Below are positions 12,412-50,410 of a DNA stretch of 64,000 bases, one piece after another; position 1 is the first letter of the stretch, and each line of letters starts with the position of its first letter. Below the pieces are notes generated by a model that saw only the letters and a program-made list of their open reading frames with translations, made no database searches and had not been told where the DNA came from. Made by a program: the position numbers and the translations under genes. Source of the DNA: Chloroflexia bacterium SDU3-3 (GTDB lineage Bacteria; Chloroflexota; Chloroflexia; Chloroflexales; Roseiflexaceae); assembly GCA_009268125.1 (NCBI GenBank), contig WBOU01000001.1, positions 587,247 to 651,246 on the forward strand, written 5' to 3'.

Positions 12412-12484
12412 TTCATGGTCAAAGTTGATCCCTCGTCCAATGGCGACACGCGCAATCTGCACTATCTGGCAAAGAGGTTTTTGT

Positions 12485-13948: not shown

Positions 13949-13981
13949 GAAACCGCTGTCATTTTCCAAAACGACGCCTTA

Positions 13982-14022
13982 CACCAAGACACCAAGGATA
14001 TTTCGTCCTTGGCGTCTTGGTG
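13982..14022. terminator. Bidirectional hairpin between convergent genes (dispersed-repeat copy)
   Basis: A 17-bp stem with one mismatch (CACCAAGAC arm, 7-nt loop) sits between the MFS stop and the AlkB stop, so it can end both transcripts. It belongs to the TTGGCGTCTTGG repeat family seen elsewhere in this window. Confidence 0.6.
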
Positions 14023-14043
14023 TCTTGGTGGTAAAAAAGCAGC

Positions 14044-20000: not shown

Positions 20001-23000
20001 GATGCCGTCATGGCACTGAAGCGAAAGGCTCGGAATCACCTAATCCTCGCGAGGGGATTGAAACTGATTTGCAAGAATACGCCTTGCAAGCGTACTTTTG
20101 CCTCGGAATCACCTAATCCTCGCGAGGGGATTGAAACTTAGTTTCTCGATAGAGTCGGTAGCGGCGATATACCACCCTCGGAATCACCTAATCCTCGCGA
20201 GGGGATTGAAACTTTAAATGATGGCTGCTTCTAAGCCTACATCCCACACACTCGGAATCACCTAATCCTCGCGAGGGGATTGAAACTAAAAATAAGTGAT
20301 TCTATCCGCGAAAAACATGGTATGCTCGGAATCACCTAATCCTCGCGAGGGGATTGAAACTCATGAGGAACTCGACACACACCATCGGCTTTGAGATCCT
20401 CGGAATCACCTAATCCTCGCGAGGGGATTGAAACGCTCATAGTCGCGGATGACCTGCCAGCGTTCCAACTCGTTTCTCGGAATCACCTAATCCTCGCGAG
20501 GGGATTGAAACGGCAGCGGCAGACTGTGCTGCCAGTACCAGCGCTTAATGCTCGGAATCACCTAATCCTCGCGAGGGGATTGAAACCTGCTTCGCAGGCG
20601 GTGTCCAGTCCCGCAAACACAGCTACTCGGAATCACCTAATCCTCGCGAGGGGATTGAAACCGGCTATCAGCCTGCTGCACGAGGTCAAGGACAAGATCC
20701 TCGGAATCACCTAATCCTCGCGAGGGGATTGAAACTTCCGAGCTAAAGTACTTATAATCACAGAAGGTGAGATTACTCGGAATCACCTAATCCTCGCGAG
20801 GGGATTGAAACCGCGTACAGCAGCTTCAGCCACTTCAGCTCGGTGTAGAGCCTCGGAATCACCTAATCCTCGCGAGGGGATTGAAACGGCGCAACCTCAC
20901 GCACGGCCAGCTGCGCGATGCCCAGGACTCGGAATCACCTAATCCTCGCGAGGGGATTGAAACTCCTTTCGTGTGTCGGGCGGTACGTCCGCCCGATGTC
21001 TCGGAATCACCTAATCCTCGCGAGGGGATTGAAACAGCGCCGGGGGCGAGCGGCCAAACTCCATCCCCCGGCACTCGGAATCACCTAATCCTCGCGAGGG
21101 GATTGAAACCACGTTTGGCACCCATATAATCCCGTCGGCGCTCTTGACAGGCTCGGAATCACCTAATCCTCGCGAGGGGATTGAAACGCCATCTACACGC
21201 CGCAGCTTCGTGCTAAACGCGCCATATGCTCGGAATCACCTAATCCTCGCGAGGGGATTGAAACCGAGATAGCAGGGCATTTTCCCCCGCCGGTGCAGAT
21301 GAGAGCTCGGAATCACCTAATCCTCGCGAGGGGATTGAAACGCCGGGGCCGTTGACCAGGCGCAGGCGCAGCTAGACGCGGCCCTCGGAATCACCTAATC
21401 CTCGCGAGGGGATTGAAACCCTTCCACAAGCGCGCCGAGCACGCCAACGTCCAGCTCGGAATCACCTAATCCTCGCGAGGGGATTGAAACCACACCGCCG
21501 CCGCGCCTCATCCAACCGACTGCCTAGTCCCTCGGAATCACCTAATCCTCGCGAGGGGATTGAAACACCTATAAGATTTTTAGGGGTGGTGAGGATGTTC
21601 AGCTCGGAATCACCTAATCCTCGCGAGGGGATTGAAACGGCCAGCATAGGCCGTCGGTCGGCGCGCTTCTCGCTCGGAATCACCTAATCCTCGCGAGGGG
21701 ATTGAAACTGGCTGCGCTGGGTGTGGCCGTGGGCCTGCCGCCTAGACGATCTCGGAATCACCTAATCCTCGCGAGGGGATTGAAACTTGGTCCGCTTCGC
21801 CGAGGGTCGCGCGGTAGCGGCCTTCGCGTATCTCGGAATCACCTAATCCTCGCGAGGGGATTGAAACTCCAGCGGCGGGGCCGCTCGCCCTCGGCCCAGA
21901 TATAGTCCGAGCTCGGAATCACCTAATCCTCGCGAGGGGATTGAAACACCTTCCCGGACGGCACCCCGATGCGCGTGCTGGTGCCTCGGAATCACCTAAT
22001 CCTCGCGAGGGGATTGAAACGCTCTGCATCTGCCTTAAAGATGCGGTCTAAGAACTCGGAATCACCTAATCCTCGCGAGGGGATTGAAACCGTCACTTCT
22101 ACCATTGTCTGTTAGCCATGTAATACTCGGAATCACCTAATCCTCGCGAGGGGATTGAAACCTCCCAGAGAGCGGCACACCCACGAAGCCAAACAGCACA
22201 CTCGGAATCACCTAATCCTCGCGAGGGGATTGAAACACACGCACCCAGGCATGGCGCTCCACAAAGTCTTGCCACGGCTCGGAATCACCTAATCCTCGCG
22301 AGGGGATTGAAACGATCTCTTTGTGCGCGTCAGGCGGCACATATGGCCGCTCTCGGAATCACCTAATCCTCGCGAGGGGATTGAAACCGTGCTGGCGTTG
22401 CTGATGATCACATCGTTGTTTTCTCGGAATCACCTAATCCTCGCGAGGGGATTGAAACCTCTTCCCCATCTGTAAACAGCTCTCGCACCGACACACCGAG
22501 CTCGGAATCACCTAATCCTCGCGAGGGGATTGAAACTGCATTCGTGTTTGTCGAGCCGATGATTGTGAAGTCCTCGGAATCACCTAATCCTCGCGAGGGG
22601 ATTGAAACTATAGACAAGTCAATAAGCAAGGCCCCGCAGGTAAGCACTCGGAATCACCTAATCCTCGCGAGGGGATTGAAACTATGACCGCGCTGATCGC
22701 GGTGATCAGCGTGGATACCGTCCTCGGAATCACCTAATCCTCGCGAGGGGATTGAAACCGATATCAATCCTGTTCCGTGCCTCATCTAGTGTTTTGCTCG
22801 GAATCACCTAATCCTCGCGAGGGGATTGAAACGTTCTCGGTGACATCCTGCGCATCTCCTTCGTAGACCTTGCTCGGAATCACCTAATCCTCGCGAGGGG
22901 ATTGAAACTCCCAGATGCTGGCCTTGGCCTGTTCGGCGTACTTCTCCTCGGAATCACCTAATCCTCGCGAGGGGATTGAAACAGAAACAGAAGCGGCTCG

Positions 23001-26000
23001 TTTGGCTCGACGGGAGCCAACCCTCGGAATCACCTAATCCTCGCGAGGGGATTGAAACTCTATAAGTCTGGTCAACTACCGAGCAAATTGACACGACTCT
23101 CGGAATCACCTAATCCTCGCGAGGGGATTGAAACCCCCAGCGCCTTCACGATCACCGAGCGCAGCCAGTACACCTCGGAATCACCTAATCCTCGCGAGGG
23201 GATTGAAACAGCACACTATGCAAGGATCTGTCAAGCGTGAGTTTTTATGCTCGGAATCACCTAATCCTCGCGAGGGGATTGAAACGCGTCTGTCAAGCTC
23301 TGGGAAAAAGGGATAGCCGCCATACTCGGAATCACCTAATCCTCGCGAGGGGATTGAAACGGATGAGGGCGACCTGGCATCGACCGCCCGCAAAGAGCTC
23401 GGAATCACCTAATCCTCGCGAGGGGATTGAAACCAAGAAAGGCACGCAGCCGACACGTGATGAGCGTGTTAAGGCTCGGAATCACCTAATCCTCGCGAGG
23501 GGATTGAAACACAGCGCGGTCTGAACGAGGTTGTCATACATAGCTCGGAATCACCTAATCCTCGCGAGGGGATTGAAACGGATTCGGCCTTTGTGATGCC
23601 GATGATTGGATGCCTACGCTCGGAATCACCTAATCCTCGCGAGGGGATTGAAACTCTGCATTATCCGGCGATTCACCCAGTTCAATAATTCGACTCGGAA
23701 TCACCTAATCCTCGCGAGGGGATTGAAACGCAAATGCCTCAAGCTCGCGGAGCGCCTTCTTAACCCTCGGAATCACCTAATCCTCGCGAGGGGATTGAAA
23801 CCCCAGACCGTATCCGCCCGCATCGTAGCGATTACATCTCGGAATCACCTAATCCTCGCGAGGGGATTGAAACACGTGCCCATGCAAGATCCTTTTCAAG
23901 GCGCTCTGCCTTGCGCTCGGAATCACCTAATCCTCGCGAGGGGATTGAAACTAAAGCCGCAACAATAAACTGTACCGCAACAGCATCATCTCTCGGAATC
24001 ACCTAATCCTCGCGAGGGGATTGAAACCGACTTCGCGCACACGCCACACGCCCCGACCTTCCCCCTCGGAATCACCTAATCCTCGCGAGGGGATTGAAAC
24101 TCAGCAAGACGGCGCCGCCCGCCTCTACTTTGTCGAACTCGGAATCACCTAATCCTCGCGAGGGGATTGAAACGCAATATCGGTAGCGGTGCCCGAATTA
24201 ACAAGCTCGGAATCACCTAATCCTCGCGAGGGGATTGAAACGCCTGCATGACCGTGTTCGCGAGGAGATCGCTCACACTGTAGCTCGGAATCACCTAATC
24301 CTCGCGAGGGGATTGAAACTCGTAAGACCCATGACGGCATCCTCTGGCGTATGTGCACTCGGAATCACCTAATCCTCGCGAGGGGATTGAAACGTTGGGG
24401 TGGGCGGCGGGCCAGCGGATACCGGGGGCGCTCGGAATCACCTAATCCTCGCGAGGGGATTGAAACTAGGTGTACGTGGTCATGGTGCTGCTCCTTTTTT
24501 TGCTGGCTCGGAATCACCTAATCCTCGCGAGGGGATTGAAACCGAGCTGGAGGATGTGACCATCGAGGAGGATGGCGAGTAGCTCGGAATCACCTAATCC
24601 TCGCGAGGGGATTGAAATCACAATGGCGCGCCGCAAATCATCGCGTGACGGCGTTGTGCTCGGAATCACCTAATCCTCGCGAGGGGATTGAAACCGCGTG
24701 CTGCCGATCTCGCTGGAAATGCTGATCAACGACCTCGGAATCACCTAATCCTCGCGAGGGGATTGAAACGCAGGCCAGCGGGCGGGTAAGTGCGACGGGC
24801 GTAGCTCGGAATCACCTAATCCTCGCGAGGGGATTGAAACGGTATCAAGCAGCACCGCCTGTAATTGATACTATGATGCTCGGAATCACCTAATCCTCGC
24901 GAGGGGATTGAAACCAAAAGGTGATGATGTATTTGATGAGATTAGTGGTTCTACGGGCTCGGAATCACCTAATCCTCGCGAGGGGATTGAAACAGATATG
25001 CGGCCAGCGCGGGCCAGTCCATCTGATCGGCGCTCGGAATCACCTAATCCTCGCGAGGGGATTGAAACCCTGGAGTGGCATAGTTCCTCCGCGCTCTCCG
25101 CGCTCTAGTCTCGGAATCACCTAATCCTCGCGAGGGGATTGAAACTGTAGACCTTGCGCCGCTGCGGGTCGTCGACGATGAGCACTCGGAATCACCTAAT
25201 CCTCGCGAGGGGATTGAAACGCCGGGTTCACTGCTGCCACCTCGACCACTACCGGCGGCCTCGGAATCACCTAATCCTCGCGAGGGGATTGAAACCTGTA
25301 TAAGTTGCGCGGCCAGCTGTTAGGTCGTCCCCACCCTCGGAATCACCTAATCCTCGCGAGGGGATTGAAACTATGGTTTCCTTCTCACAAGGAAGGATCT
25401 AGCTCGGAATCACCTAATCCTCGCGAGGGGATTGAAACCTGAGATTCGCGCTGCTGCGCCGCCCATGAGTACAAAGCTCGGAATCACCTAATCCTCGCGA
25501 GGGGATTGAAACGGTGTGACGACCTTACCGCTTTCGTCGCGATAGGTGCCTCGGAATCACCTAATCCTCGCGAGGGGATTGAAACAAGTAGAACATATCG
25601 GCGGTCAAGGTTGAAACAACCGCGCCTCGGAATCACCTAATCCTCGCGAGGGGATTGAAACTCAGATATGATGCATTGGAATGCGGTATATAGTGTCTCT
25701 CGGAATCACCTAATCCTCGCGAGGGGATTGAAACCTTGCGCCATACGCTCTTTAAGCGTGCCTTCGTATTTGCCTCGGAATCACCTAATCCTCGCGAGGG
25801 GATTGAAACGTATACCCATGATCGGCCATGATATTGTAGATCTCTTTTTCCTCGGAATCACCTAATCCTCGCGAGGGGATTGAAACATGCGGATGCTCTC
25901 CTCGACGAAGATCCAACGCTCGCTCGGAATCACCTAATCCTCGCGAGGGGATTGAAACGGCTACGGCCTGATCATCGGCGCGGCGGTCTACGAGAATCTC

Positions 26001-28362: not shown

Positions 28363-29037
28363 CTACATCTTAGCCTTGAGTGGAACCCACTTCAGATCCA
28401 CGACAAGCCGACCCGTCTTTCGGTTGGTGACCACATTGATCACCTCAACACGGGCAGAGTTTCCCTCACGGAAACTTGATGTCTTTTTGCCCGCGAGCAT
28501 CTCAGCTTTCAGTACACCTATCGCTTCATCTTCCGGAAAGTCGGGAATAGCTATCTGTATAAACTCTGGATGTATCCCTGTAATACGGCCAGTAAAGCCA
28601 TCTCCTATGTTTGGAAGAGACCTCTCCTTTTTCTTTTTAACATATTCTTCGTATAATTCACTACGACTTACACCTTTTTTACTGCTAAGACCAAATCCAT
28701 TCTCCTGGCTTAGCTGTGTACTCTCTGAACGATACTTTGCAAGACGATATGACCATCCTAAAATCTGCGCAAAATCATCATCCGAAACTTTATGCACTTT
28801 CAAAAATGAGCCTATTAACAGAAATATCTTTCGATAATGATCACTCGTATTCCTATTCTGGCTGAATGGCGTGTCCTCTCCACGCTCATATATCATCTCA
28901 AGTAACAGCCTACGATCTCTCACCATAACAAAATACTTAAATGACTTCTCTAATTCACCTATACCTCGGTCTAGGTGAGATTTAAAAATCTCATCAGCAA
29001 ATTTTTCCGCCAATATATGAATTTCTTTCTGATCCAT
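28363..29037 (-). CDS. Type III-D operon protein with OB/S1-like C-terminal region, unrecognised
   Basis: 224 aa; start at ATG 29037, one base after the stop of the upstream Cas7-like gene and preceded by AGGA. It is the last gene of the type III-D operon, so translation is probably coupled. About 1-130 look mostly helical (for example FLLIGSFLKVHKVSDDDFAQ), then comes a Lys/Glu-rich charged stretch (YVKKKKERS). About 150-220 look like a beta barrel: GDGFTGRITGIHPEFIQIAI, then a strand ending NSARVEVINVVTNRKTGRLVVDLKW, reminiscent of S1/OB RNA-binding folds. I do not recognise the family. The position suggests an accessory subunit of the complex or an RNA-binding partner. Base composition is clearly AT-richer than in the Cas10 end of the same operon. 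Confidence 0.8.
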   Translation of the reverse strand: MDQKEIHILAEKFADEIFKSHLDRGIGELEKSFKYFVMVRDRRLLLEMIYERGEDTPFSQNRNTSDHYRKIFLLIGSFLKVHKVSDDDFAQILGWSYRLAKYRSESTQLSQENGFGLSSKKGVSRSELYEEYVKKKKERSLPNIGDGFTGRITGIHPEFIQIAIPDFPEDEAIGVLKAEMLAGKKTSSFREGNSARVEVINVVTNRKTGRLVVDLKWVPLKAKM

Positions 29038-29038
29038 C

Positions 29039-30133
29039 TTAGTAAATCCTATCACTCCCGCCAGCAACATACTTTGCAGGCTCTCGCATAATTTCCGCGA
29101 GCTTCTTCCGGCTACTCTCATCTATCTCGTTTGATTCATTTGCGGCCTTCACACAGTCTGAAACTGATAGTACGCTATCAACGCGCTCAAAATCAGTATA
29201 GCTTGCATAATCGACCACTGATAGCGCAATATCAGTAAACCGTATCGTTCCCATTGATACCGGCTTCCCTCCACCCACCTTCAGACGAAGAATATCTTGA
29301 TCAGCGCCAAACACAATCAGGATGATACCTAATTCAGCCATAGTCAGGTTACGGAACATGATCTGCATGTGAAACTCGGAGCCTATCGAGCACGCTTCTA
29401 CCGCCGTATATGGCCGCTCAACTTCTCGCGAGTCGCCACTTCGGTAGAACTTACGACCTCTTACCCGACTACGATTACGATCTAGAAAATACTTTTCCCA
29501 ACCAGTGGTAATAGAAGGATCGCCCTCACTATAATCAGGTTGTGGCCGATATAACGGTAGGCGACGAAACAACATTGCGTTTCCTGATACTTGGTAAGCA
29601 TCAAGAAAAGAGCATTGCCCTTGATACGAATTATCCGCGCTTGTCAGCCCGAACAATCGATTGGCAAGGGGCATGATTGGGTCGGCAGGGGACTTATGTA
29701 ATTCTTGTTGTCTGTATTTCATGCGCAACTGCTGAACGTGCACCCCTCGAACCGTCTTCTTCGAAGATTCTACAGAAAACTCAATCCCGGGCAAGGTGAT
29801 CGCCTCTACCGCACTTCTGATAACGCCTTTCAACGTCGATCCAGGAATATATCGCTTCCCCTGGCTTCGCACGTGCGAGGCAACCAGCGTATCATCTTTG
29901 ATCGTTGACCGATCTACATCACCATAGCGAAGAATATCAGATGTAGAAACCACATAACCGGACCCTACATGAACCAAAGATTCACTGATAATCTTGGCAG
30001 ATAGCATCCCTGTCAACAATCGGGCGTGGCTTGAACCTATGGCCAGATGATGCCCCGCTGCCAGGCTATTCTTCGCCGTGGATGAGATCGGAACAAAATC
30101 ATAAGGCTTCTCGCGATGCGTTTCATCAGTCAT
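29039..30133 (-). CDS. Cas7-like RAMP protein, fourth in III-D operon
   Basis: 364 aa. The ATG overlaps the stop of the Csx19-like gene by 8 nt. RAMP features: an N-terminal strand LLTGMLSAKIISESLVHVGSG, then VRSQGKRYIPGSTLKGVIRS, the conserved Cas7 substrate-loop and helix motif. A second half has a Gly-rich turn (VGGGKPVSMGTIRF). It probably forms part of the backbone that holds crRNA. At the position where Csm3 has its target-cutting Asp I read a non-acidic residue (V in TLVASHVRSQG), so this subunit may not cut; that alignment is by eye. A C-terminal helical tail of about 60 residues follows the RAMP core. AT-richer than cas10. Confidence 0.88.
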   Translation of the reverse strand: MTDETHREKPYDFVPISSTAKNSLAAGHHLAIGSSHARLLTGMLSAKIISESLVHVGSGYVVSTSDILRYGDVDRSTIKDDTLVASHVRSQGKRYIPGSTLKGVIRSAVEAITLPGIEFSVESSKKTVRGVHVQQLRMKYRQQELHKSPADPIMPLANRLFGLTSADNSYQGQCSFLDAYQVSGNAMLFRRLPLYRPQPDYSEGDPSITTGWEKYFLDRNRSRVRGRKFYRSGDSREVERPYTAVEACSIGSEFHMQIMFRNLTMAELGIILIVFGADQDILRLKVGGGKPVSMGTIRFTDIALSVVDYASYTDFERVDSVLSVSDCVKAANESNEIDESSRKKLAEIMREPAKYVAGGSDRIY

Positions 30134-30629
30134 TATCTACCCTCACCTCTCGTAAGCGCTGGAACTGTACTGCCCCATTAGGGGCAAGATACTCGGTATA
30201 GGCCACGTTGATATTCGAGGAGCCTGTCTCCCTGAGCATAGCCTTTGCGTGCTTGCACACAAACCATGTGCCATCCTCCCACACCTGCGTCTGGGAATTC
30301 CAGTGAGGAATACAGAGCGGCACGCCGCCTGCGACCTCGGCAGGATGCTCGCAGAGTACGAGCACATCGTAGGTGGTCTCATCGTAGCGCTTCCAGCGTA
30401 CTTCGGCAGACTGGGAGAACGCGTGGCCAAAATCGCCAGCGACCACCACCTCATCAGCGGTGGCAAAGGGAGTCACCGGCTGGAGCTGAGGAGCGGGCGC
30501 GCCATCAAGCCACAGCGCCACCCCACCAAACCAGAAGCCTTGCCCCCCCACATGGGCAGTAATCAGGGTGCGGATCTGCGCGACGCTGGCCGGGTAGACC
30601 CGATAGATATAGCTGGTACCTTCGCTCAT
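30126..30629 (-). CDS. csx19: Csx19-like type III-D accessory protein
   Basis: 167 aa, starting at ATG 30629, which overlaps the stop of the upstream gene (ATGA). Its place among Cas7-like genes next to csx10/cas10, its size, and a beta-rich sequence with SAEVRWKRYDETTYDVLVLCE are in line with Csx19 (TIGR03984) proteins, which mark type III-D loci. The C-terminus (FQRLREVRV) is also beta. No catalytic motif is visible. Csx19 is thought to be a complex subunit. The assignment rests mainly on context and a remembered motif, so the name is tentative; the gene itself is certain. Confidence 0.65.
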   Translation of the reverse strand: MSEGTSYIYRVYPASVAQIRTLITAHVGGQGFWFGGVALWLDGAPAPQLQPVTPFATADEVVVAGDFGHAFSQSAEVRWKRYDETTYDVLVLCEHPAEVAGGVPLCIPHWNSQTQVWEDGTWFVCKHAKAMLRETGSSNINVAYTEYLAPNGAVQFQRLREVRVDND

Positions 30630-31660
30630 AGACCAAGCTCTCGCTTCCAAGCAGGCATACATGCACGCCACATATTGCGTACCTGCGCATCACCAAGTGC
30701 TGTCAACTGCACCCCAAGAAACATATCGTTCTGATACTTAATCTTTTCCGGAAGTGGTGCAAGATCTTCTTTCGGCAACGCATAGGAGCGATACGCCTCA
30801 GAAGCACAGAAGGCTCCCAGCCCCGCAAACTCGTGTTCGGTACATATGGTCTGGCCATTCAGGAGCTTGAGGTGTTGTTCTTGTAGCTCACAGGTTGGAT
30901 AGCGCAGCTCCATCGATTCAAACGTTACACTTACCTGCCCTAAGCCACGTGATTTCCCAAACCCGATGCCTACACGACCATCAGCCACATCACGCAGCGC
31001 AAGACCCAGGAGGCCAAGCTGCGCCAGTGTCAGGTTCTCAAAATGAATCTGTGATCGAAATGAACCACCGACCACCACCTCATAATTGAAAAGACCGCCT
31101 CGTATTGCAGACCCATATACTCGATCAATTGCCACACCGTTGCGTTCTTCGATATATTCCATCTTAAAGTCTTTATCATAGGCATCGGCAAAACGCACCC
31201 GACCAGCAAGGCTAGTATGACCAAAGATCTGGCTGACAAACGACGAACGACGATACACTGTGGCAGTGTAATCCGTTGTGCTGTCCCGTTTTATCTCTTC
31301 AATAGCCCTACCTGAACTATAGCTGATATCAGCTAAACCCTGGTACTCCGTTCCCTTCCCCAAAGGGTTATCCGCGAGAGGGATGAGTGGCTCATTCTTC
31401 CCAAACGCCTCTTCGCGCACATGCTGCTTCTGCTGCTGGAGTAGCTCACTATCCAGCGAGCGGCAGATCCGCTCGGCCTGGGCGCGCACCACGCCCTTAA
31501 GCGAGGGGCCCGGAATATAGATCTTGCCCTGAGAGCGCACAAAGCGCATATCCGGCAGCGTCGGATCGGCACCGCTGCTCTCGCCAGCCTTCACCAGGAT
31601 TGGCCCATGAGGCACAATGGTGAAGGATAACGTCCCCGCAAAGAAGGTCGCCTTATGCAT
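30626..31660 (-). CDS. Cas7-like RAMP protein, third in III-D operon
   Basis: 344 aa. AAGGAG precedes the ATG, which overlaps the end of the upstream RAMP gene by 8 nt. FVRSQGKIYIPGPSLKGVVRAQ is the Cas7 signature; RNGVAIDRVYGSAIRGGLFNY is a shared middle segment; VGIGFGKSRGLGQVSV is the Gly-rich RAMP loop. D37, 11 residues before YIPG, is a candidate for the Csm3-type RNA-cutting Asp (by-eye alignment). The C-terminal 80 residues after the RAMP core are not recognised. It probably forms part of the crRNA-bound backbone of the III-D complex. Confidence 0.9.
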   Translation of the reverse strand: MHKATFFAGTLSFTIVPHGPILVKAGESSGADPTLPDMRFVRSQGKIYIPGPSLKGVVRAQAERICRSLDSELLQQQKQHVREEAFGKNEPLIPLADNPLGKGTEYQGLADISYSSGRAIEEIKRDSTTDYTATVYRRSSFVSQIFGHTSLAGRVRFADAYDKDFKMEYIEERNGVAIDRVYGSAIRGGLFNYEVVVGGSFRSQIHFENLTLAQLGLLGLALRDVADGRVGIGFGKSRGLGQVSVTFESMELRYPTCELQEQHLKLLNGQTICTEHEFAGLGAFCASEAYRSYALPKEDLAPLPEKIKYQNDMFLGVQLTALGDAQVRNMWRACMPAWKRELGL

Positions 31661-32519
31661 GGTTCGCTCCTTGGCTAATCACGCCCGTCGGGTCCATAAG
31701 CGCCGCACGAAAAGCCGCAAACCACGTCTGCATCACATCATCTGGCGCTGAGAGCGGAAGCTCAAGCATACTTCCATCGCCGTAGCCAAGGAGCGCAAGG
31801 ACATCATTGGCGTTCTTAATCGTCTGGAAGACAGCAGACAGCTCATCCAGCTGCACGTACCCCAGGCCGCGCGAGCGGAACCCGCCGATCTGCACGCCGC
31901 CCTGCTGCCAGGGGCGCAGCGCCAACAAGACCATCCCAAGCTGCCACGGTGCCGCGTTCTCAAGCCGCAGCTCGAAATGAAACCGAACACCCGCAGGAAC
32001 GACCTCATAGTCATACAGCAAACCCTGCTCAGCGGTCTCCGTATCACGGTTGAGCGCCACCCCATTGCGGATCTCAAACTGATCAAACCAGATTGAGCGG
32101 TCAACCAACGCATCCTTGAAGAAGATCCGTCCAGCCACCCATGGCGCACCAAAGGTGAGATCGATCAGTGTGGATTCGTTCCAAATCTCCTTGCTCTTAT
32201 CTTTTTTTTCATTATTCTCCGACTGCACGAGCGGCGCAATTGTCCCGCGCTCATGTTCTTCAAGCTGGTGAAAGTCGCGAACCTGCTCGGGTTGCACCGT
32301 GCGTATCAGCGCCTCAATCTGCGCGCGAAACGCGCCTTTCAGCGATGCGCCAGGCACATACGGAGTTCCCCATACATCACGCAATACTGGAAGGTCACTG
32401 CCGATTACATCAAGGGATCGGCCAGCACCAATGCGCAGCGCGGTCTGAGCGACTAACATCCCACGCACGCTCAGCCGATTCTGAAGCGCCGCGAATGAGA
32501 AGATCGATTCACTTTCCAC
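31653..32519 (-). CDS. Cas7-like RAMP protein, second in III-D operon (GTG start)
   Basis: 288 aa. The start codon is GTG at 32519, with GGAGG 6 nt upstream, overlapping the end of the small-subunit gene. Signatures: TPYVPGASLKGAFRAQ, RNGVALNRDTETAEQGLLYDY and GGVQIGGFRSRGLGYVQL. D42, in GSDLPVLRD, matches the Csm3 catalytic Asp position, so this subunit may cut target RNA. By length and motif it is close to Csm3/Csx7-type Cas7 proteins. Translationally coupled to both neighbours. Confidence 0.9.
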   Translation of the reverse strand: MESESIFSFAALQNRLSVRGMLVAQTALRIGAGRSLDVIGSDLPVLRDVWGTPYVPGASLKGAFRAQIEALIRTVQPEQVRDFHQLEEHERGTIAPLVQSENNEKKDKSKEIWNESTLIDLTFGAPWVAGRIFFKDALVDRSIWFDQFEIRNGVALNRDTETAEQGLLYDYEVVPAGVRFHFELRLENAAPWQLGMVLLALRPWQQGGVQIGGFRSRGLGYVQLDELSAVFQTIKNANDVLALLGYGDGSMLELPLSAPDDVMQTWFAAFRAALMDPTGVISQGANHA

Positions 32520-33024
32520 GGGGAGCCTCCGTCGGTGCAGCAGAGGAAAGGGTAGGAGATGTCAACGTATCAAACGCTTTCATCTTGTTCGCGTAGTAGA
32601 ACGCTCGGTTCAAGTAGCCCAGGTAGAGCTGCATCAGCTTGACCTTCGCACGATCACGATCTGCTTCCTCAAGTGTCGGCGGAGACTCCCGATCTCGTAC
32701 AAATTCCAAGACCGCTGTGTGCCACTGTGGGAGCTGATGTGTCAGATCTTCTATCACCTTATGGCCGAAGCTATCTGGCATCTCCCCCCAGGCCTTACCC
32801 TTGCGCGCGATCTGGTAGCGGATAAAGTTGATCACCACCTCCTGTGAGCGCGACTCAATCGCCGCATTCAACAGATTGCGCAGCTGGCTCTCCTCCATTT
32901 CGGAGTTATTTTTCAACAGTACCACCCTCTGATTCGCCTGGCGCACTAGCGTATCCATCTGGCGCTCGATGCCCTGCTCTATCAGCAGATCGCGACGCAG
33001 GGTCGCAGGATCAAGGTCACTCAT
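32509..33024 (-). CDS. cas11: Type III small subunit (Cas11/Csm2-like)
   Basis: 171 aa, almost wholly helical by appearance, as expected for the small subunit that lines the target-RNA channel. SQLRNLLNAAIESRSQEVVINFIRYQIARKG is the segment I associate with Csm2-like proteins of type III-D loci (here given only as a described region at about residues 46-77). The C-terminal 20 residues are Pro/Ala/Thr-rich and carry the translational coupling site for the next gene. It lies between csx10 and the second Cas7-like gene. The call rests on context, size and the helical segment. Confidence 0.72.
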   Translation of the reverse strand: MSDLDPATLRRDLLIEQGIERQMDTLVRQANQRVVLLKNNSEMEESQLRNLLNAAIESRSQEVVINFIRYQIARKGKAWGEMPDSFGHKVIEDLTHQLPQWHTAVLEFVRDRESPPTLEEADRDRAKVKLMQLYLGYLNRAFYYANKMKAFDTLTSPTLSSAAPTEAPRGK

Positions 33025-33033
33025 GCTGCCTCC

Positions 33034-34191
33034 TTAGAGATGAAACTCATCACAGATACGGACCTGGCCGTAGCCCTCGGCGCGGCGATCCCCGATCCCA
33101 TCGTGCTCCAGCGCCACCAGCCGCTGGCACTGCGCATCGTCGAGCCGACCCGGCACCTCATAGACAAACAGGCTGCCCATCTGCGTCGCCACCGCTGTGG
33201 GCTTGGGGCGCTGCCATGAGACATTCCAGCCGCCCACAGCGCTCGTGGTGGCCCAGGCCCGCACCAGCCGCGCATCGATCCCCGTCCGCTCCTTCAGCAT
33301 CGCCGGGCTCAGCTGATTCGTCGGCAGCCAACCCTGCTCGGTCAAGAGCGCGTCGGAGAGGAGGTTCACGGTGAAGATGGTGCCAGGTGTCCAGGGTGTA
33401 CCGCCCATGGCCTCATACAGCGTGGCCGTATCGCGGAAACGCGCGCTCATCGCATCGATCCGCCTGCGCAGATCGGCGACATGATCCTCAGCGGGCAGCT
33501 CCGCGCCCACCTGGATGCTGACCTCACCGCTGCCCGTGGTCTGCCGCCCGCCCAGCAGGGAGATCGCCGCAAGCTGGCCCACAAGATCCGGAACGTCCTC
33601 GGGCACCGCCACGCTGCCCAAGAAGCGGGTTGGAACCAGCTCGCCGTCCAGCTCCATCACCTCGCTGATCACCAGCGGCGAAAACAGCTGGCCATCCGCC
33701 GTCGTCCCGCGCCGCCGGTTGATGGCCACGCGGGTGAGCACCCGCTGCTGCACGCTGCGGAAGACGGGGGTATGCGTCTTCTGATCCCGCGTGTAGAAGG
33801 CCCGCCCAACCGCCTCCCAGGGGCGGCCCTCCGCATCCGTCGGGGCATAGATCAGCGCGGGCGGGCGCTGCTGCTCCCAGCACACCCGGTCGTAGAGCGC
33901 ATCATGGGTGATCTGCTCATCGCCCTTGGGGCGGAGCGCCGTCATCGGCAGCGGGCGCGACCAGGGGTCGCCCGCGAGGGCGGGGTAGGCGTTATGGCAG
34001 CGAACCGCGCGGAAGAGCCGCGCCAGCTCCTCGGGGGTATGGGCCTGCCGCCCGCCCAGCCGCGCGCCGAGCGCGCCATACAGCACCGCCCCCGGCACAT
34101 AGGGCAGGCTCGCGCGGAACTGCACCCCCGGCTTGCGCTCGGGAAAGGCCAGCGGGCCGCGCGCCTCAATCGTGATCGGCAGATACCTCAT
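33034..34191 (-). CDS. csx10: Csx10, type III-D Cas5-like RAMP
   Basis: 385 aa, starting at ATG 34191, which overlaps the stop of the upstream Cas7-like gene (ATGA); longer in-frame starts read into that gene. Csx10 is the signature of subtype III-D and occupies the Cas5 position that binds the crRNA 5' tag. Signatures: ASLPYVPGAVLYGALGARL near the N-terminus, RVAINRRRGTTADGQLFSP in the middle, and Gly-rich GGRQTTGSGEVSIQVG. The C-terminal part has DRRAEGYGQVRI, a RAMP Gly-rich loop. Length fits the family. Confidence 0.9.
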   Translation of the reverse strand: MRYLPITIEARGPLAFPERKPGVQFRASLPYVPGAVLYGALGARLGGRQAHTPEELARLFRAVRCHNAYPALAGDPWSRPLPMTALRPKGDEQITHDALYDRVCWEQQRPPALIYAPTDAEGRPWEAVGRAFYTRDQKTHTPVFRSVQQRVLTRVAINRRRGTTADGQLFSPLVISEVMELDGELVPTRFLGSVAVPEDVPDLVGQLAAISLLGGRQTTGSGEVSIQVGAELPAEDHVADLRRRIDAMSARFRDTATLYEAMGGTPWTPGTIFTVNLLSDALLTEQGWLPTNQLSPAMLKERTGIDARLVRAWATTSAVGGWNVSWQRPKPTAVATQMGSLFVYEVPGRLDDAQCQRLVALEHDGIGDRRAEGYGQVRICDEFHL

Positions 34192-34856
34192 CGCAGCCCC
34201 CCCGCTGTCAGCACCGCGCGCAGGTCGTCGGCCAGATCCGCGAGGGGCAGCGGGGTGTCGTCGACCCACAGCCGCACGTCCGCCCGCGCCCAGCCGAGGC
34301 CGCGTGACTTCGCCCCACCCCAGCGATCGGTCAGCTGGATGGCGGCGGCCAGCAGCGCGGCGCTCCGGCGTACGGCAGCCACCTCGTCAAACGCCCCGAT
34401 GATCGCGCGCTGGTGCTGAAAGGCCATCCCCTCATGCGCCACCTCCTGGTAGAGCAGGCGGGCGTCCTCCGCCGTCCCGCGCCGCCGGTTGATCGAGACC
34501 GACGGGCGGATCTGGGTCAGACGCCGCTGGAACTCAGGGGCTTGCGGGGCGTCCACCAGCGTGCTCGGCAGATCGGCAAAGCGCAGGGCCGCGCGGCGCG
34601 TCGCGCTACCAAACAGGTCTTGGATCAGCGACCCCGTATCGAGATCGTTGGGAAACGGCACCGCGTGCCCGACCCCGCGCAGCAGCTGCTCGGCGGCGCA
34701 GCGCAGCTTGCCCTTCACCTGCGATCCGGGGATGATCGGTCGCCCCCAGCCATCGCGCACGATGCTCGTATTGGCCAGCGTCCCGGCGCTCCCGCCCGCC
34801 CCGATGCGCAGCGCCGTCTCCAGCTGGATCGTCAGATCAACGGTCAGTACGCTCAT
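34188..34856 (-). CDS. Cas7-like (Csm3-type) RAMP protein, first in III-D operon
   Basis: 222 aa, starting 4 nt before the cas10 stop (ATGA-type overlap). Signatures: ALRIGAGG, RPIIPGSQVKGKLRCAAE, INRRRGTAEDARLLYQE and GGAKSRGLGWARAD. A single RAMP domain of Csm3 size. At the Csm3 catalytic Asp position I read Asn (TLANTSIVRD), so cutting by this subunit is doubtful; the alignment is by eye. It binds crRNA as part of the backbone next to Cas10 and Csx10. Confidence 0.9.
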   Translation of the reverse strand: MSVLTVDLTIQLETALRIGAGGSAGTLANTSIVRDGWGRPIIPGSQVKGKLRCAAEQLLRGVGHAVPFPNDLDTGSLIQDLFGSATRRAALRFADLPSTLVDAPQAPEFQRRLTQIRPSVSINRRRGTAEDARLLYQEVAHEGMAFQHQRAIIGAFDEVAAVRRSAALLAAAIQLTDRWGGAKSRGLGWARADVRLWVDDTPLPLADLADDLRAVLTAGGLR

Positions 34857-36949
34857 TGTTGGTCCTTCACCATGTCATAGATCTCCAGCATGTCGGCCCA
34901 GATCGTCTCCCACGCTCCCGCCTCAACCGCCCGCCACGGGGGCAGCGATTCGCACCACCGCTCTTGCACATGTGTCTTCAGCACGCCCGCCATACGCTCA
35001 TTGCGGGCGCACGTATAGAAATACTCCATCACGCTGGTGACGATTGTCTCCCCCGGCTGCTCATCCAACATGCGGCGCAGGCGATAGAGCTGCGAGCGCG
35101 GCACCTGCTCATCCTGGAGCGCGCGCACGGTCGTGATCAGCGCGGAGAACTCTCGCCAGGTGTAGGGGCGCGCCGTCAGCCGCCGGTCGCCCCCCATGCC
35201 CAGGGCCTGCCGCCGAAAGCTCTGGATATTATCCGTCACCATCGAGATAGACTTTAGGACCATGAAATCGACCGCCCCACCATAGAAGCCGTGCGCAGTA
35301 TGCTGCTTGGCCTTCTTCTTCGCGCTCTTCAGCAGCTCCTCCACCAGGTCGCGCAGGAAAAAGATCGGCGTGGTCTCCGGCGCGATAATCACCCCGGCGG
35401 AGAGGCCCACCAGCGGCTCAAACGGCTCATGAGCGCTCGCAGCCTTGCTCCGATGCGAATACAGGTCATCCGTGATCGCCGATGGCCCATTCAGGTCGCC
35501 GATTGCGCGGAGGCGCTCCGCGATACACTGCTCAAATGAGGCGCTGATCGCTTCGGCGATCTCCAGCGCCTTACTGCCGGGCACGATGATGAAGAGGTCA
35601 TCGCCGCCAATCGTCAGGATCTCAAAGGGATAGACCCACTTCTTCTGACCAGGCGTCGCTGAGCGGAGATCATCAATCTCGATCGGCACCACATGGCGTC
35701 CCAGGGCATGAAACACCGCCGTCTTCGCCGCAGCGCTCAAGGTCGCAGAGACCGCTTGGTAGCGCGCCGGGGTCGTCAGGGTCGCAATCAATCGCCCAAC
35801 ATTATTCCCATCGGCATAGATCACCCCGATAAAGCCATCCGGGCGCGACGCCTGGGCGATCTCCTGCACATCGCTGGCCGCCGTCGCACGCTGCGCTTGC
35901 GGGTGCTGAGCGAGCTGCGCAGACACGTGCGCGGGGTTTTGGACAAACGCCCGCCACTGCGCTTCCCAGGAGCGCTCTGCGAGCGCATCTGGTGCTCGCC
36001 ATGCAAACGTATCGGTATACCATCGGGTGTGGGCAGCATCGCGCTTGAGGAGCTGACCCACGTAGCGCTTGCGTGCCGACGGCTCGCTCAGCTTCCGCTC
36101 TTCATCGACCACCATGCCGCTCCAGACCGCCGGGCGCAGATCACTGCTGTCGCACTTCTCAGCCCAGGGGAGAATGGGGTAGTGAGGGATGCTGCGCGTG
36201 TCGCCGCCGAACGAGCGCTCCTCACGGCGGCGCGTGGTCATCGTCGCGAGGAGGGTCACCAGCTCGCCAAAGGTCTTCCGGCGAAAGAAGCGCTGCTCTG
36301 GCGCATCCACAGGATCTGCTGGTTGCGCATAGTAGTAGGTCGCAAGGCGCTTCTGAAGCTCGTTCTGGCTCCACTGTTGCAGAAACTCCTCGACCCAAAA
36401 CGCGATCGCGCCATCGCGAATCGCGAGCTGCCCATAGCGCAGCTCCAGCAGGTGAACGGTGTGGGTCACAAACACACTGTTCGCCGTCAGGGTGGTGGTG
36501 GTATAGCACCGCTCGGCGGCGGCAGCCAGCTCCTCGCCCAGCGCGGCGGGGGCAAACGCCAGAAAGCCGCCGCCGCTGGCGTAGATGACGCACGCCTGCC
36601 CCAACTCCTCCCCGAGCCGTCCGGCCCACAGCTGCGGAACGGCATCCTCATTCACCCAGTCCAGCAGCGCACTGGCCCCGCGTATCTCGGGGAGCTTGGG
36701 CGACTCAAACACATAGCCCTTGATCTTGGTCGCGCCGCCCATCACCAGCGCGATCTGCGCCTGATCCTCGGGCAGCACCGCGTGAATCTGATCGAGCCGC
36801 GCCTGGAGCTGCGCGCGGTCAGGATCGGCGTTGTCTCCCAGCACCTGCTCGACCACGGCCCGCACGCGCCCCTCATGCGCCGATGAGCGGTCAGCGGCAC
36901 CCCACAGCAGGCAGGCCGTCACCGCCTGGGCAAAAGACGTCTCGGTCAT
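34853..36949 (-). CDS. cas10: Cas10, type III-D, without HD domain
   Basis: 698 aa large subunit of the III-D complex. Start ATG 36949, with AAGGA 9 nt upstream. The N-terminus begins with a short helical region, then KIKGYVFESPKLPEIRGASAL, the typical Cas10 palm-1 entry (about 75-95). The second palm has YADGNNVGRL (about 378-387) and the intact cyclase motif IGGDD (GGDD 448-451), so cyclic oligoadenylate synthesis is expected. No HD motif is visible, so single-stranded DNA cutting is not expected. The C-terminal 150 residues are helical (domain D4). The neighbouring first gene of the operon encodes a SAVED protein, a known cyclic-nucleotide sensor fold. Confidence 0.93.
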   Translation of the reverse strand: MTETSFAQAVTACLLWGAADRSSAHEGRVRAVVEQVLGDNADPDRAQLQARLDQIHAVLPEDQAQIALVMGGATKIKGYVFESPKLPEIRGASALLDWVNEDAVPQLWAGRLGEELGQACVIYASGGGFLAFAPAALGEELAAAAERCYTTTTLTANSVFVTHTVHLLELRYGQLAIRDGAIAFWVEEFLQQWSQNELQKRLATYYYAQPADPVDAPEQRFFRRKTFGELVTLLATMTTRRREERSFGGDTRSIPHYPILPWAEKCDSSDLRPAVWSGMVVDEERKLSEPSARKRYVGQLLKRDAAHTRWYTDTFAWRAPDALAERSWEAQWRAFVQNPAHVSAQLAQHPQAQRATAASDVQEIAQASRPDGFIGVIYADGNNVGRLIATLTTPARYQAVSATLSAAAKTAVFHALGRHVVPIEIDDLRSATPGQKKWVYPFEILTIGGDDLFIIVPGSKALEIAEAISASFEQCIAERLRAIGDLNGPSAITDDLYSHRSKAASAHEPFEPLVGLSAGVIIAPETTPIFFLRDLVEELLKSAKKKAKQHTAHGFYGGAVDFMVLKSISMVTDNIQSFRRQALGMGGDRRLTARPYTWREFSALITTVRALQDEQVPRSQLYRLRRMLDEQPGETIVTSVMEYFYTCARNERMAGVLKTHVQERWCESLPPWRAVEAGAWETIWADMLEIYDMVKDQQ

Positions 36950-36955
36950 AGCGCA

Positions 36956-37855
36956 TTATCCTTTAAGCTCACACGCAGGGACATAGGTGCCGTCCAGCTT
37001 GTCGTAGTCGTAGCACTGCACCGGCCCGCACGCGTTGAGCATCCGACCAATCATCACCGCGAGGGGGATCGGGGCCGCCATAAACAGATGGATGCGGCGC
37101 GGCGTCCGCTGGGCCACGCGCAGATGCGAGCGGATGTACGTGCCGATCGCCAGGGCGATCGCCACCGCATGCGCGCTGCCCATGACCTTCGCAGGCTCCA
37201 GCGCACAGCAATGGCGCTCCCGCAGCGGCAGCGGGCGCTCGACGAGCCAGCGGTCGATCGCATCATTGCGGGCAGACGATGCCCAGATCTCCAGGCTCAC
37301 ATCCGGCTGCTCCGGATCAAGCACCTGCCGGTCCCACACGAGCCGATCATCCGCATCCGGCTGGCTGCTCGTGCACCACCACTGCCCCTGCCCCGCAGCG
37401 ATCCAGAGATCATAGGTGGTCTGCTGCGAGAAGAGAAAACCGAATGCCAGCCCGACGCTGAGGTGCGCCTTCATATGCACCGCCAGCTTCGTCTGGGCAC
37501 GCTGATCGCACTGCTGCTTCAGCCCGCGCAGGTCGGCCCAGAGGCCACCAGTCCAGGTCGTCGCGGCGGGGCGGCCCTCCGGGAAAGACCCAGACCAGTC
37601 AAACGCTGTATACAGTGGATCGGCGAGGAGTCCCCCGGCGTAGGTCGCCAGCGCAAGCCGCCGCGCATCGCGGGGAAGGCACTCGCAGATCTGATTATCG
37701 ATCAGACGGAGTTCGCGTTTGAGATCCTGAATCTGCAACGTGATATGGGGTTCCGTACTCAAGCCCGTATACGCGGATTGCCGCTCAAACTCACGGAGCC
37801 GCCGAGCCATCCCATCTCGCTGCTGCTTCAGTGCGTCGAGGTCAGCCGTATCCAT
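36956..37855 (-). CDS. SAVED-domain protein with N-terminal coiled coil
   Basis: 299 aa, first gene of the III-D operon, 6 nt before cas10. Residues about 4-60 form a charged coiled coil (LKQQRDGMARRLREFERQ, then LKRELRLIDNQI) of a kind common at the N-termini of Chloroflexota/cyanobacterial defence proteins. From about 125 to the end I recognise a SAVED fold: KAHLSVGLAFGFLFSQ, then ALAIGTYIRSHLRV, then RIHLFMAAPIPLAVMIGR and CYDYDKLDGTYVPACEL. SAVED domains bind cyclic tri- or tetra-adenylate in CBASS (Cap4) and in CRISPR (CalpL). No nuclease, protease or membrane domain is visible, so it would be a sensor working with a partner or an unfamiliar effector. Confidence 0.85.
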   Translation of the reverse strand: MDTADLDALKQQRDGMARRLREFERQSAYTGLSTEPHITLQIQDLKRELRLIDNQICECLPRDARRLALATYAGGLLADPLYTAFDWSGSFPEGRPAATTWTGGLWADLRGLKQQCDQRAQTKLAVHMKAHLSVGLAFGFLFSQQTTYDLWIAAGQGQWWCTSSQPDADDRLVWDRQVLDPEQPDVSLEIWASSARNDAIDRWLVERPLPLRERHCCALEPAKVMGSAHAVAIALAIGTYIRSHLRVAQRTPRRIHLFMAAPIPLAVMIGRMLNACGPVQCYDYDKLDGTYVPACELKG

Positions 37856-40361: not shown

Positions 40362-42626
40362 ATGGCCGATTCTGCCGATCCAATGGGCGCAGCCTGCGAG
40401 GTGCTGCGCTACTGGGCCACCTATGCGGGCCAGCCGCCCGATCCGGTGCCCTCCCCAACGATTTTCGCAGAGCTTACCAGGCGTAAGGCCGTCGAGCCAC
40501 GCCTCACCAGCATTTTTAGCCAGCTCCCCAAAGATGCTGGTGAGGAAAAGAAGCTAACCTATGTCAGGCCAGCGCCGCTGACCGTTAGCGGGGAGACCAT
40601 CTTCCCAACAACCGAACCAAACGACCCGACTGCGCAGCGCCAGCGGCTGAACCAGGCCGCTGCCAGCATCATCGCGGCGTCCCCCGAGCCGCAGCAGCTG
40701 ACCGCGCTGGCCGACCTGCTGGAGCGCGAGGCGTGGTGCCTACCCTCGCCGCTGCCAGGCATCCCGCTCTACGACTTCGCCCGCGTGCATGCGGCGCTGG
40801 CAGCAGCCCGGGCGCACGGCGGGGCGACGCTGCTGGTGGGCGGCGATGTCTCGGGCGTGCAGGACTTCATTTACACCATCCCCGCCAAGGGCGCGGCCAA
40901 GCAGCTGCGCGGGCGCTCGCTCTACCTCCAGCTGCTGTCCGAGGCCATCGCCCGCTACATCATTGGCGAGCTGGGCATGCCCGAGGTCTGCTTGCTCTAC
41001 TGCGGCGGCGGGCGCTTCTACGCGGTGCTGCCGAACAAACAAGAGAAGCTGGACGAGATGAAAACAAGAATCGCCCAAGTGCTGCTGGAGCGTCACGGCG
41101 TCGCGCCCTACCTGGCGCTGGGCTGGCAGCCGCTTGCAGGCGACTACAGCAAGCTCTGGGAGAAGCTGCATGAGCAGATCAACCAGGCCAAGCAGCGCAA
41201 GTTCGCCGACCTAGAGACAGAAACGCTGCAAAATCTGCTGTTCACCCCGCGCGAGCAGCACCAGCCACAGCCCGATCTCGGCGAGGCTGAAACGGATGCT
41301 TTTGGACGATCCATCGCAGAAATGGGCGGAAAAGTCGGCCAGGCGCTCTATCTTCGGGATTGGAAAATCAATCGCTACGAACACCCTGAAATGCAGCGCG
41401 TACCAACGCACTGGCATCACGTGCTGAACGCCTTTCGCAGCGGCCTCCGCACAGAGAGCCAGGAGCAGCTTAAGCAGCGTACGCCTGATGATCGACCCTC
41501 ACGCCTACGAGCCATGCGCGATCTCACACCAGAAGAGGAGGAGGTGGCAAGAAACAAGCTCGGCCAAAGCGGCACCCTCGGGCGGCGCTACACGGTCAAC
41601 GAGGTGCCGCTGGTGACGGCCATCGACCTCGCGCAGACCCACGACGAGCAGGCGTACATCCCCGGCGATGAGCCGCGCGAGGGCGAGCCAAAGCCCTTCG
41701 GCATGCTGGCCGAGCAGAGCCAGGGCATCAAGCGGCTGGGCGTGCTGCGCATGGATGTGGATGACCTGGGCGCGCTGTTTGGTGGGCGCGAGAAGGCCGA
41801 GCGCAGCATCGCCGATCTGGCCGAGACGGCGGCGCTCTCGGCGGCGCTGGGCCGCTTCTTCGAGGGCTATGTGGGCACGCTCTGCCGCAACATCAACAGT
41901 GCGATCAGCCGCAAGGAAGAGCCAGATGGCGGCATCTACACTGTCTACAGCGGCGGCGACGACCTGTTTATCGTCGGGTCGTGGCACCTGCTGCCCGATC
42001 TGGCCTATACCATCCGGCAGGAATTTGCCCGCTATGTGACGGGGAAAACCAGCGAGGGCGGCGCATACATCGAGTCGACCATCACGCTCTCGGCTGGCAT
42101 CACCCTGCACACCAGCAAGTTCCCGATCTACCAGGCCGCCGACATGGCCCACGAGGCGCTGGAGGCCGCTAAGGCATTCACGCGGCCAGCCCAAAAGGGT
42201 GAGAAGAAGGGCCGACCGAAGGACGCGCTGACCTTCTTGGGCATCACCATCGGCTGGGAGGACTACGCCGAGCTGCAGCAGCGACAGCGGCAGCTCTACG
42301 ACCTGGTGCAACAGGGCGCACCTACCGCCCTGCTGATCACGCTGCAATCCCTGGCCCAGCAGGCGCGGCCCAAGCGCTTCAACCGCGACGGTAGGCCGCA
42401 GGCCAGCCACGGCCCGTGGATGTGGCGCGGTGCCTACATGCTCACGCGGCTGGCCGAGCGCGTCGGCAAGCGCGAAGGGGGAGAGAAGTCGAGAAAAGAG
42501 ATCGAAGATCTCATCCACTACATCCGCCACCCGCTGAAGGAACATTCGGCCAATCAGCCCATCATCCTCGCAGGCATGGCTGCGCGCTGGGCGCAGCTCC
42601 TGCTCCGAGGCGAAGATAAAAGATAA
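40362..42626 (+). CDS. csm1: Cas10/Csm1, type III-A, without HD domain
   Basis: 754 aa large subunit. The start has AAAAGGAG upstream. The N-terminal 150 residues correspond to the part of Csm1 after the HD domain (LTSIFSQL, then WCLPSPLPG, LYDFARVHAALAA), so the HD nuclease is missing rather than mutated. Palm 1 starts LVGGDVSGVQDFIYTI with KGAAKQLRGRSLYLQLL. Palm 2 has LRMDVDDLG and YSGGDD (GGDD 531-534), so cyclic oligoadenylate synthesis is expected. The Cys-rich zinc-binding segment usual between the palms is not seen (no CxxC). The C-terminal D4 region is helical. It heads an operon with csm2-csm5 and two csm6 genes at 9-12 nt gaps or overlaps. Confidence 0.94.
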   Translation: MADSADPMGAACEVLRYWATYAGQPPDPVPSPTIFAELTRRKAVEPRLTSIFSQLPKDAGEEKKLTYVRPAPLTVSGETIFPTTEPNDPTAQRQRLNQAAASIIAASPEPQQLTALADLLEREAWCLPSPLPGIPLYDFARVHAALAAARAHGGATLLVGGDVSGVQDFIYTIPAKGAAKQLRGRSLYLQLLSEAIARYIIGELGMPEVCLLYCGGGRFYAVLPNKQEKLDEMKTRIAQVLLERHGVAPYLALGWQPLAGDYSKLWEKLHEQINQAKQRKFADLETETLQNLLFTPREQHQPQPDLGEAETDAFGRSIAEMGGKVGQALYLRDWKINRYEHPEMQRVPTHWHHVLNAFRSGLRTESQEQLKQRTPDDRPSRLRAMRDLTPEEEEVARNKLGQSGTLGRRYTVNEVPLVTAIDLAQTHDEQAYIPGDEPREGEPKPFGMLAEQSQGIKRLGVLRMDVDDLGALFGGREKAERSIADLAETAALSAALGRFFEGYVGTLCRNINSAISRKEEPDGGIYTVYSGGDDLFIVGSWHLLPDLAYTIRQEFARYVTGKTSEGGAYIESTITLSAGITLHTSKFPIYQAADMAHEALEAAKAFTRPAQKGEKKGRPKDALTFLGITIGWEDYAELQQRQRQLYDLVQQGAPTALLITLQSLAQQARPKRFNRDGRPQASHGPWMWRGAYMLTRLAERVGKREGGEKSRKEIEDLIHYIRHPLKEHSANQPIILAGMAARWAQLLLRGEDKR

Positions 42627-42636
42627 GGAGAAAAGC

Positions 42637-43158
42637 ATGTCCGATGAACGAGCTGCAAGCTCTCAATGGGTAAAAACGAAAGTCTCAGATACAACACTTA
42701 AGCAGATCTTGACTGAGGAATCATCCAAAGCAATAGAGCTATTGGATCAGACTGCCGAGATCATTGGCCAGGAACTACACAGTCTCAACTTTACAACATC
42801 ACAAATCAGGGCCGTTTTTGGACGCGTTCGAACCATTGAGCAGATGGTTAATGTACCAGATGTTGATACAAAAAATGGTTCAAGCGAGGAGTCCATCAAA
42901 TCCAAGCTATCGCTTCCGGTTTATACAGAACTCCGCCTGCTGCGTCCCAAGCTCGCCTATCAATATGGGCGAACCGGAGGCGAGGATAAGCGCGGAAAAG
43001 AGAAAGACAATCAAAAAGTCGCGATGGGTATCCTCCAGCAAGTCCTCTCCAATGCTGTCGCCATTGTCAATGACGATGCAGCAGCATTTCAGCGGTTCGT
43101 GAGCTTTTTTGAAGCGATCCTCGCCTACCATCGATACTACGGTGGCAAGAATAGTTAG
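42637..43158 (+). CDS. csm2: Csm2, type III-A small subunit
   Basis: 173 aa, 10 nt after csm1, with AAGGAG upstream of the ATG. Mostly helical. SQIRAVFGRVRTIEQM and LSLPVYTELRLLRPKLAYQYGR (described region, about residues 88-110) match the Csm2 pattern, where the Tyr/Arg-rich helix faces the crRNA-target duplex. The C-terminus holds FQRFVSFFEAILAYHRYYGG, the usual end of Csm2. A charged insertion (EDKRGKEKDNQK) separates the helices. AT-richer than csm1. Confidence 0.92.
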   Translation: MSDERAASSQWVKTKVSDTTLKQILTEESSKAIELLDQTAEIIGQELHSLNFTTSQIRAVFGRVRTIEQMVNVPDVDTKNGSSEESIKSKLSLPVYTELRLLRPKLAYQYGRTGGEDKRGKEKDNQKVAMGILQQVLSNAVAIVNDDAAAFQRFVSFFEAILAYHRYYGGKNS

Positions 43159-43167
43159 GAGAATGCT

Positions 43168-44049: not shown

Positions 44050-44061
44050 TAGGAGCTGGTT

Positions 44062-50390: not shown

Positions 50391-50410
50391 CAGAAAGGAG
50401 CCAGAACGTT

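Follow-up and report, generated by a model that had tools for sequence, protein, structure and literature searches.

The operon at positions 28363-37855 of the analysed DNA from Chloroflexia bacterium SDU3-3 is a type III-D CRISPR effector in which Cas7.1 carries asparagine (Asn29) in place of the catalytic aspartate. Asp is ancestral at this position and Asn29 is a derived, lineage-specific loss on the SDU3-3 branch. By analogy with related complexes, the SDU3-3 effector probably cuts target RNA at two sites, with the Cas10-proximal cut missing. We consider it rather likely that this explanation holds as a whole, i.e., that the operon encodes an unfused (III-D1-like), RNA-targeting III-D complex with four non-equivalent Cas7 subunits and two cuts. 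The new element is a natural, lineage-specific Asp-to-Asn loss in one of the three cutting subunits of a III-D system. In the open-access papers searched, we found no account of single Cas7 catalytic residues being lost naturally in III-D operons, which does not prove that none exists. All coordinates are positions within the window, a stretch of 64,000 nt (GCA_009268125.1, contig WBOU01000001.1, 587,247 to 651,246).

Family scans with Pfam, NCBIfam and PADLOC revealed a compact operon on the minus strand, running from 37855 down to 28363 and encoding, in order of transcription, a SAVED protein, Cas10, Cas7.1, Csx10, Cas11, Cas7.2, Cas7.3, Csx19, Cas7.4 and Csx21. The SAVED-domain protein (36956-37855), a putative sensor/effector of the Cas10 second messenger, was matched by NCBIfam SAVED (E 8e-26, residues 68-298), Pfam SAVED and the PADLOC SAVED families; about 67 N-terminal amino acids lie beyond the SAVED match. 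Cas10 (34853-36949) was recognized by PADLOC from residue 66 onwards (E 1e-67) and by Pfam Cas10 palm2. Its translation contains the GGDD palm motif, and an HD model matched it in none of the Pfam, NCBIfam and PADLOC scans. Type III-D Cas10 proteins usually lack an HD nuclease. The subtype is assigned as III-D because the signature protein Csx10, the Cas5 of type III-D (33034-34194), scores over the curated cut-off of TIGR02674 (188.9 bits, cut-off 177.3). The Csm2-like small subunit Cas11 (32509-33024; PADLOC Csm2/III-D small subunit, E 1e-40) occupies the same place in relatives. Csx19 (30126-30629; PADLOC, E 7.5e-32), whose start was trimmed from 30671 to match the orthologs, is often present in type III-D; in the III-Dv complex of Synechocystis it has a structural role and sits between Cas5 and Cas10. 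NCBIfam Csx19 did not match the SDU3-3 copy and gave weak matches in three of 15 family members. The last gene (28363-29037; PADLOC Csx21, E 1.1e-9) encodes an accessory protein that resembles Csx21 and has an S1/OB-like C-terminus. Related operons also end with this gene, and 3/11 family members show an S1 match. PDB profile searches yielded no relative of Csx19, Cas11 or Csx21, all three of which are named by PADLOC.

The four separate Cas7-like subunits of the preliminary description were confirmed: Cas7.1 (34188-34856), Cas7.2 (31653-32519), Cas7.3 (30626-31660) and Cas7.4 (29039-30133), all on the minus strand, are intact open reading frames that score over the RAMP Pfam cut-off; no RAMP genes were detected with PF03787 in the genome beyond the window. 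The region is flanked by two large CRISPR arrays, one of 120 repeats with a period of about 74 bp (17060-25946) and one of 65 repeats (51958-56825), the repeats of which are closely related. Beyond the III-D operon, a complete III-A operon with genes for two Csm6-like proteins, Cas6 and Cas1 resides on the plus strand. The Cas6 for crRNA processing (49578-50390, plus strand) exceeds the cut-off for PF10040 and reaches 42.9 bits with TIGR01877, below the cut-off of that model.

Cas7.1 is a Csm3-like protein whose gene adjoins those for Csx10/Cas5 and Cas10. The asparagine that the preliminary description had placed at its catalytic position was confirmed: N29, encoded by AAT (minus strand, 34772-34770), aligns with the catalytic D26 of the III-Dv Cas7-Cas5-Cas11 protein and with the Csm3 Asp. 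The sequence around this position reads GTLANTSIVRDGWGRPIIPGS in SDU3-3 and GTLADKSIVRDGWGRPIIPGS in its relatives. That the asparagine is peculiar to SDU3-3 and that relatives carry Asp had been missed. For comparison, III-D operons were gathered by a phylum-wide search for Csx10 (62 of 400 genomes), by screening 84,980 species genomes with a profile of Cas7.3 and by searches of the family and order, and orthologs were counted after removal of near-duplicates. The unfused III-D gene order is widespread across the collected operons, and operons of this type are ordinary and numerous. Of 90 Cas7.1 orthologs, 78 have Asp at this position, as do all 29 others from the same taxonomic order. In a maximum likelihood tree, SDU3-3 Cas7.1 falls inside a clade of 26 rows, 25 with Asp and one with Asn (support 100/99), the sister of which also has Asp (support 99/84); its neighbour is an Asp-bearing relative with 59% identity. 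Since the order is otherwise uniformly Asp and the tree nests the Asn within an Asp clade, we conclude that Asp is ancestral and that it was lost on the SDU3-3 branch. Elsewhere, a few lineages show independent losses of the Cas7.1 Asp, to His in two groups and to Thr, Glu, Gln, Tyr and Asn in single cases. Some of these other losses sit on long branches.

Degeneration of Cas7.1 was rejected as an explanation, because the protein keeps 40 of 43 near-invariant positions and differs at only three. Asn29 might stem from a sequencing error or from a rare allele that is not fixed in the species; this would be compatible with the single base that separates AAT from the GAT of the nearest relative and with a comparison set of one genome per species. 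However, the adjacent codon differs as well (ACG versus AAA/AAG) and the assembly, in 51 contigs, has an estimated completeness of 100%, and we judge an error or unfixed allele to be unlikely, with very little weight left to it. Least weight of all is given to a repurposing of Cas7.1 for processing of pre-crRNA. The first Cas7 domain of Cas7-11 processes crRNA, and Cas7.1 has the position of that domain and the same loss of the target-cutting Asp, a resemblance in position. Yet Cas7.1 otherwise resembles its Asp-bearing relatives, and it need not process crRNA, as the genome encodes Cas6 twice, once in the window.

The two aspartates that the preliminary description had pointed out in Cas7.2 and Cas7.3 hold up as candidate catalytic residues. 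Cas7.2 is a candidate RNase that matches TIGR02581 with 184.8 bits. Its D42 aligns with D33, the catalytic residue of III-Dv Cas7-2x.1, and 95 of 100 orthologs have Asp there. For Cas7.3, also a candidate RNase, the best sequence match in the PDB is the Cas7-2x chain, second domain. Conservation and spacing suggest that D37 corresponds to catalytic D246 of III-Dv, a placement that is less direct than that of D42 in Cas7.2. The D37 column is Asp in 95/102 orthologs, compared with 59/102 for the neighbouring, less likely D32. At the commonest loop length (58 sequences) D37 precedes the proline of an IPG motif by 17 residues, and D246 in III-Dv Cas7-2x.2 likewise lies 17 residues before the IPG proline. 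Two observations that would favour other assignments were set aside. One is a pairwise HMMER alignment that puts D246 of III-Dv opposite P33; the conservation of D37 and its IPG spacing at the usual hairpin length outweigh it. The other is an 'LP' anchor in favour of D32, which conflicts with the far greater conservation of D37 and its D246-like spacing. Structure-based comparison related Cas7.4 to the folds of Cas7-11 and 8s9u_E (see below) and did not place D37. The AF2 model of Cas7.3 is good overall (pLDDT 86.9; match to 8bmw_H with Z 19.7), but the loop that contains D32 and D37 (residues 27-37) has a pLDDT below 50.

Cas7.4, a protein of 364 amino acids with a partial match to TIGR03986, takes the place of the capping subunit. 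With VIA-align, its AF2 model (pLDDT 82) matched residues 918-1656 of Cas7-11 with Z 27.3 over 300 residues and 8s9u_E with Z 25.3 over 321 residues, the latter alignment spanning around the absent insertion (8s9u_E 112-766). Cas7.4 is thus homologous both to the III-Dv Cas7-insertion protein, whose insertion it lacks, and to the terminal Cas7 domain of Cas7-11. The earlier statement that its residue at the catalytic position is non-acidic proved too strong, as D80 and D81 lie at or beside that place, two to three residues before a strand predicted by AF2 to start at 83. On the other hand, the D80 column is not conserved among 99 orthologs (R 19, D 14, Q 11, K 10, G 10, others), and Cas7.4 therefore has no conserved catalytic acid.

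These observations bear on the possibility that a third cut persists, either through Asp80/Asp81 of Cas7.4, which sit where a catalytic Asp would be expected, or through residual activity of Cas7.1 with Asn29. In addition to the lack of conservation of D80, the homologous III-Dv Cas7-insertion protein leaves the target unkinked at that place, and the last Cas7 of III-Dv is thought not to cut (PMC11026444). The Cas7.1 site is expected to be silent because the equivalent substitution in Pyrococcus furiosus Cmr4, D26N, abolishes target cleavage, while the Cas10 DNase activity is kept (PMC7192623). We regard a persisting third cut as improbable.

Judging from related complexes, the Cas7 subunits would line up along the crRNA in the order Cas7.1-Cas7.2-Cas7.3-Cas7.4, with one copy each, and members of the family would be expected to make three cuts in the target RNA at 6-nt intervals, through Cas7.1, Cas7.2 and Cas7.3, with Cas7.4 as a non-cutting cap. 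Asn29 would then eliminate the cut nearest Cas10, and two cuts, by Asp42 of Cas7.2 and Asp37 of Cas7.3, should remain. The III-Dv complex indeed cuts RNA at three sites with a spacing of 6 nt, using D26 (equivalent to Cas7.1), D33 (Cas7.2) and D246 (Cas7.3), each single Asp-to-Ala mutation abolishes just its own cut, and the Cas10-proximal site appears to be the fastest (PMC11026444). Note that two fixed sites and regular 6-nt steps, which had been set against each other in the preliminary description, form a false contrast: Cas7.2 and Cas7.3 are neighbours, and their two sites would keep the 6-nt distance. Moreover, its claim of only two candidate cutting aspartates applies to SDU3-3 (N29, D42 and D37 at Cas7.1, Cas7.2 and Cas7.3) but not to III-D as a rule, since 61 of the 79 other complete operons have Asp at all three positions. 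A two-site pattern is likely for SDU3-3 and no rule for III-D complexes.

The numbers of genes and aspartates do not by themselves fix the number of cuts, because the Sulfolobus III-D complex duplicates subunits and has a silent Asp. It contains Cas7c and Cas7d twice, its Cas7b does not cut in spite of a plausible Asp, and its cuts are spaced by 12, 6, 6 and 6 nt (PMC9945777). Copy number or local target geometry could likewise decide in SDU3-3, where either Cas7.2 or Cas7.3 might be present twice, or one Asp-bearing subunit might be silent. To a cut number other than two on these grounds we assign a minor though appreciable probability; SDU3-3 shares its gene order with III-Dv, for which native mass spectrometry revealed one copy per subunit (PMC11026444).

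Type III immunity is switched off by cleavage of the target. RNase-dead Cmr4 leads to dormancy or death in Saccharolobus (PMC9368842), and in P. furiosus it could be obtained only with the other activities disabled (PMC7192623). A natural complex that lacks one of three cuts, the one beside Cas10, would be a ready-made test of the role of each cut, and with separate subunit genes single active sites should be simple to change in vitro. More speculatively, the 3' target fragment that is retained would gain about 6 nt and be slower to leave, and Cas10 signalling to the SAVED protein may therefore last longer. In Csm complexes, terminal RNA products stay bound for more than 1 hour and keep Cas10 active (PMC11040160), whereas the authors of the III-Dv study observed that after cutting the 3' product leaves and Cas10 relaxes (PMC11026444). 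The effect on signalling could thus be small, although under both behaviours a fragment with some six more paired bases should depart later. Selective silencing of the cut nearest Cas10, with the two distal cuts kept, might prolong SAVED signalling, so that the type III off-switch would have been retuned in nature. In the same reading, the lineage might have reached the two cuts of Cas7-11 by a path of its own, with its genes still unfused. Taken jointly, these two proposals appear doubtful.

Among known systems, the Synechocystis III-Dv complex (8s9t-8s9x; PMC11026444) is matched by the SDU3-3 operon in the order of its domains (Cas7-Cas5-Cas11, Cas7, Cas7, Csx19, Cas7-insertion). Each SDU3-3 Cas7 has a single III-Dv counterpart, in the order of the genes: Cas7.1 pairs with the Cas7 domain of Cas7-Cas5-Cas11, Cas7.2 with the first half of Cas7-2x, Cas7.3 with its second half, and Cas7.4 with Cas7-insertion. 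The catalytic positions of Cas7.2 and Cas7.3 match, and Cas10 has GGDD in both. In contrast to III-Dv, the SDU3-3 genes are unfused and Cas7.4 lacks the insertion, so the fusions that define III-Dv/III-D2 are not present, and the replacement of D26 by Asn29 predicts two instead of three sites. The unfused III-D operons of other Chloroflexales (Roseiflexus, Chloroflexus, Oscillochloris and relatives) have the same genes in the same order with close sequences, up to about 71% identity for Cas7.3, but the Asn at Cas7.1 occurs in SDU3-3 alone. A silent site in a III-D effector with several paralogues is not unprecedented: the Saccharolobus solfataricus III-D complex (SsoCsm, 8bmw; PMC9945777) likewise contains several different Cas7 paralogues and one site that does not cut, though with five cas7 genes, two duplicated subunits and a silent Cas7b that keeps a plausible Asp. 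The resemblance to fused complexes of the Cas7-11/III-D2 type that had originally been proposed holds for Cas7-11, with two cutting and two non-cutting units, and not for III-Dv with its three sites (PMC11026444). In type III-E Cas7-11 (gRAMP) the second and third Cas7 units cut and the first and last do not, with Asp429 and Asp654 as the only cutting residues (PMC9629832). Cas7-11 is a single polypeptide without Cas10, Cas5 and Csx19, whereas SDU3-3 has Cas10 and Csx10 and is not III-E. A point mutation in an unfused III-D operon can thus give rise to the Cas7-11 active-site pattern, and the best reading is that SDU3-3 has arrived at it by independent loss, without fusion.

The III-D operon and a complete III-A operon lie between two large CRISPR arrays, one of 120 repeats (window 17060-25946) and one of 65 (51958-56825). 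In the III-A operon (40362-51430, plus strand), the genes for Csm1-5 come first, and after them those for a tandem pair of Csm6-like proteins, for Cas6 and for Cas1. Since the two flanking arrays have closely related repeats, the III-D and III-A effectors of the window may have crRNAs in common. At the beginning of the window (about 1-16400), inspection by eye picked out several secreted proteins that carry domains resembling glycoside hydrolases and, at the C-terminus, repeats with the pattern CxVxYxVNQWxTGF; these repeats are probably cellulose-binding modules.

Two further proteins are encoded on the minus strand at the ends of the III-D operon. The SAVED-domain protein (36956-37855), whose gene adjoins cas10, lacks a recognised effector domain, and the SAVED match excludes its N-terminal ~67 residues. 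The Csx21-like protein (28363-29037) has an S1/OB-like C-terminus; it gave only weak Pfam matches and a PDB search returned no relative. This protein is conserved in related III-D operons, where its gene likewise stands last.

Comparison with other III-D operons also revealed replacements of the Asp residues matching the catalytic ones of Synechocystis III-Dv. In a group from the same phylum as the window (operons L051, L056, L057 and L063), the Cas7.2 Asp is replaced by Arg or Asn, while that in Cas7.1 and Cas7.3 is kept; the predicted silent site of this group, in Cas7.2, differs from that of the window operon. In two further groups (L064, L077, L168, L173, L174 and L177), His takes the place of the Cas7.1 Asp, and in L177 the Cas7.2 Asp is also gone, with Gly at this position.
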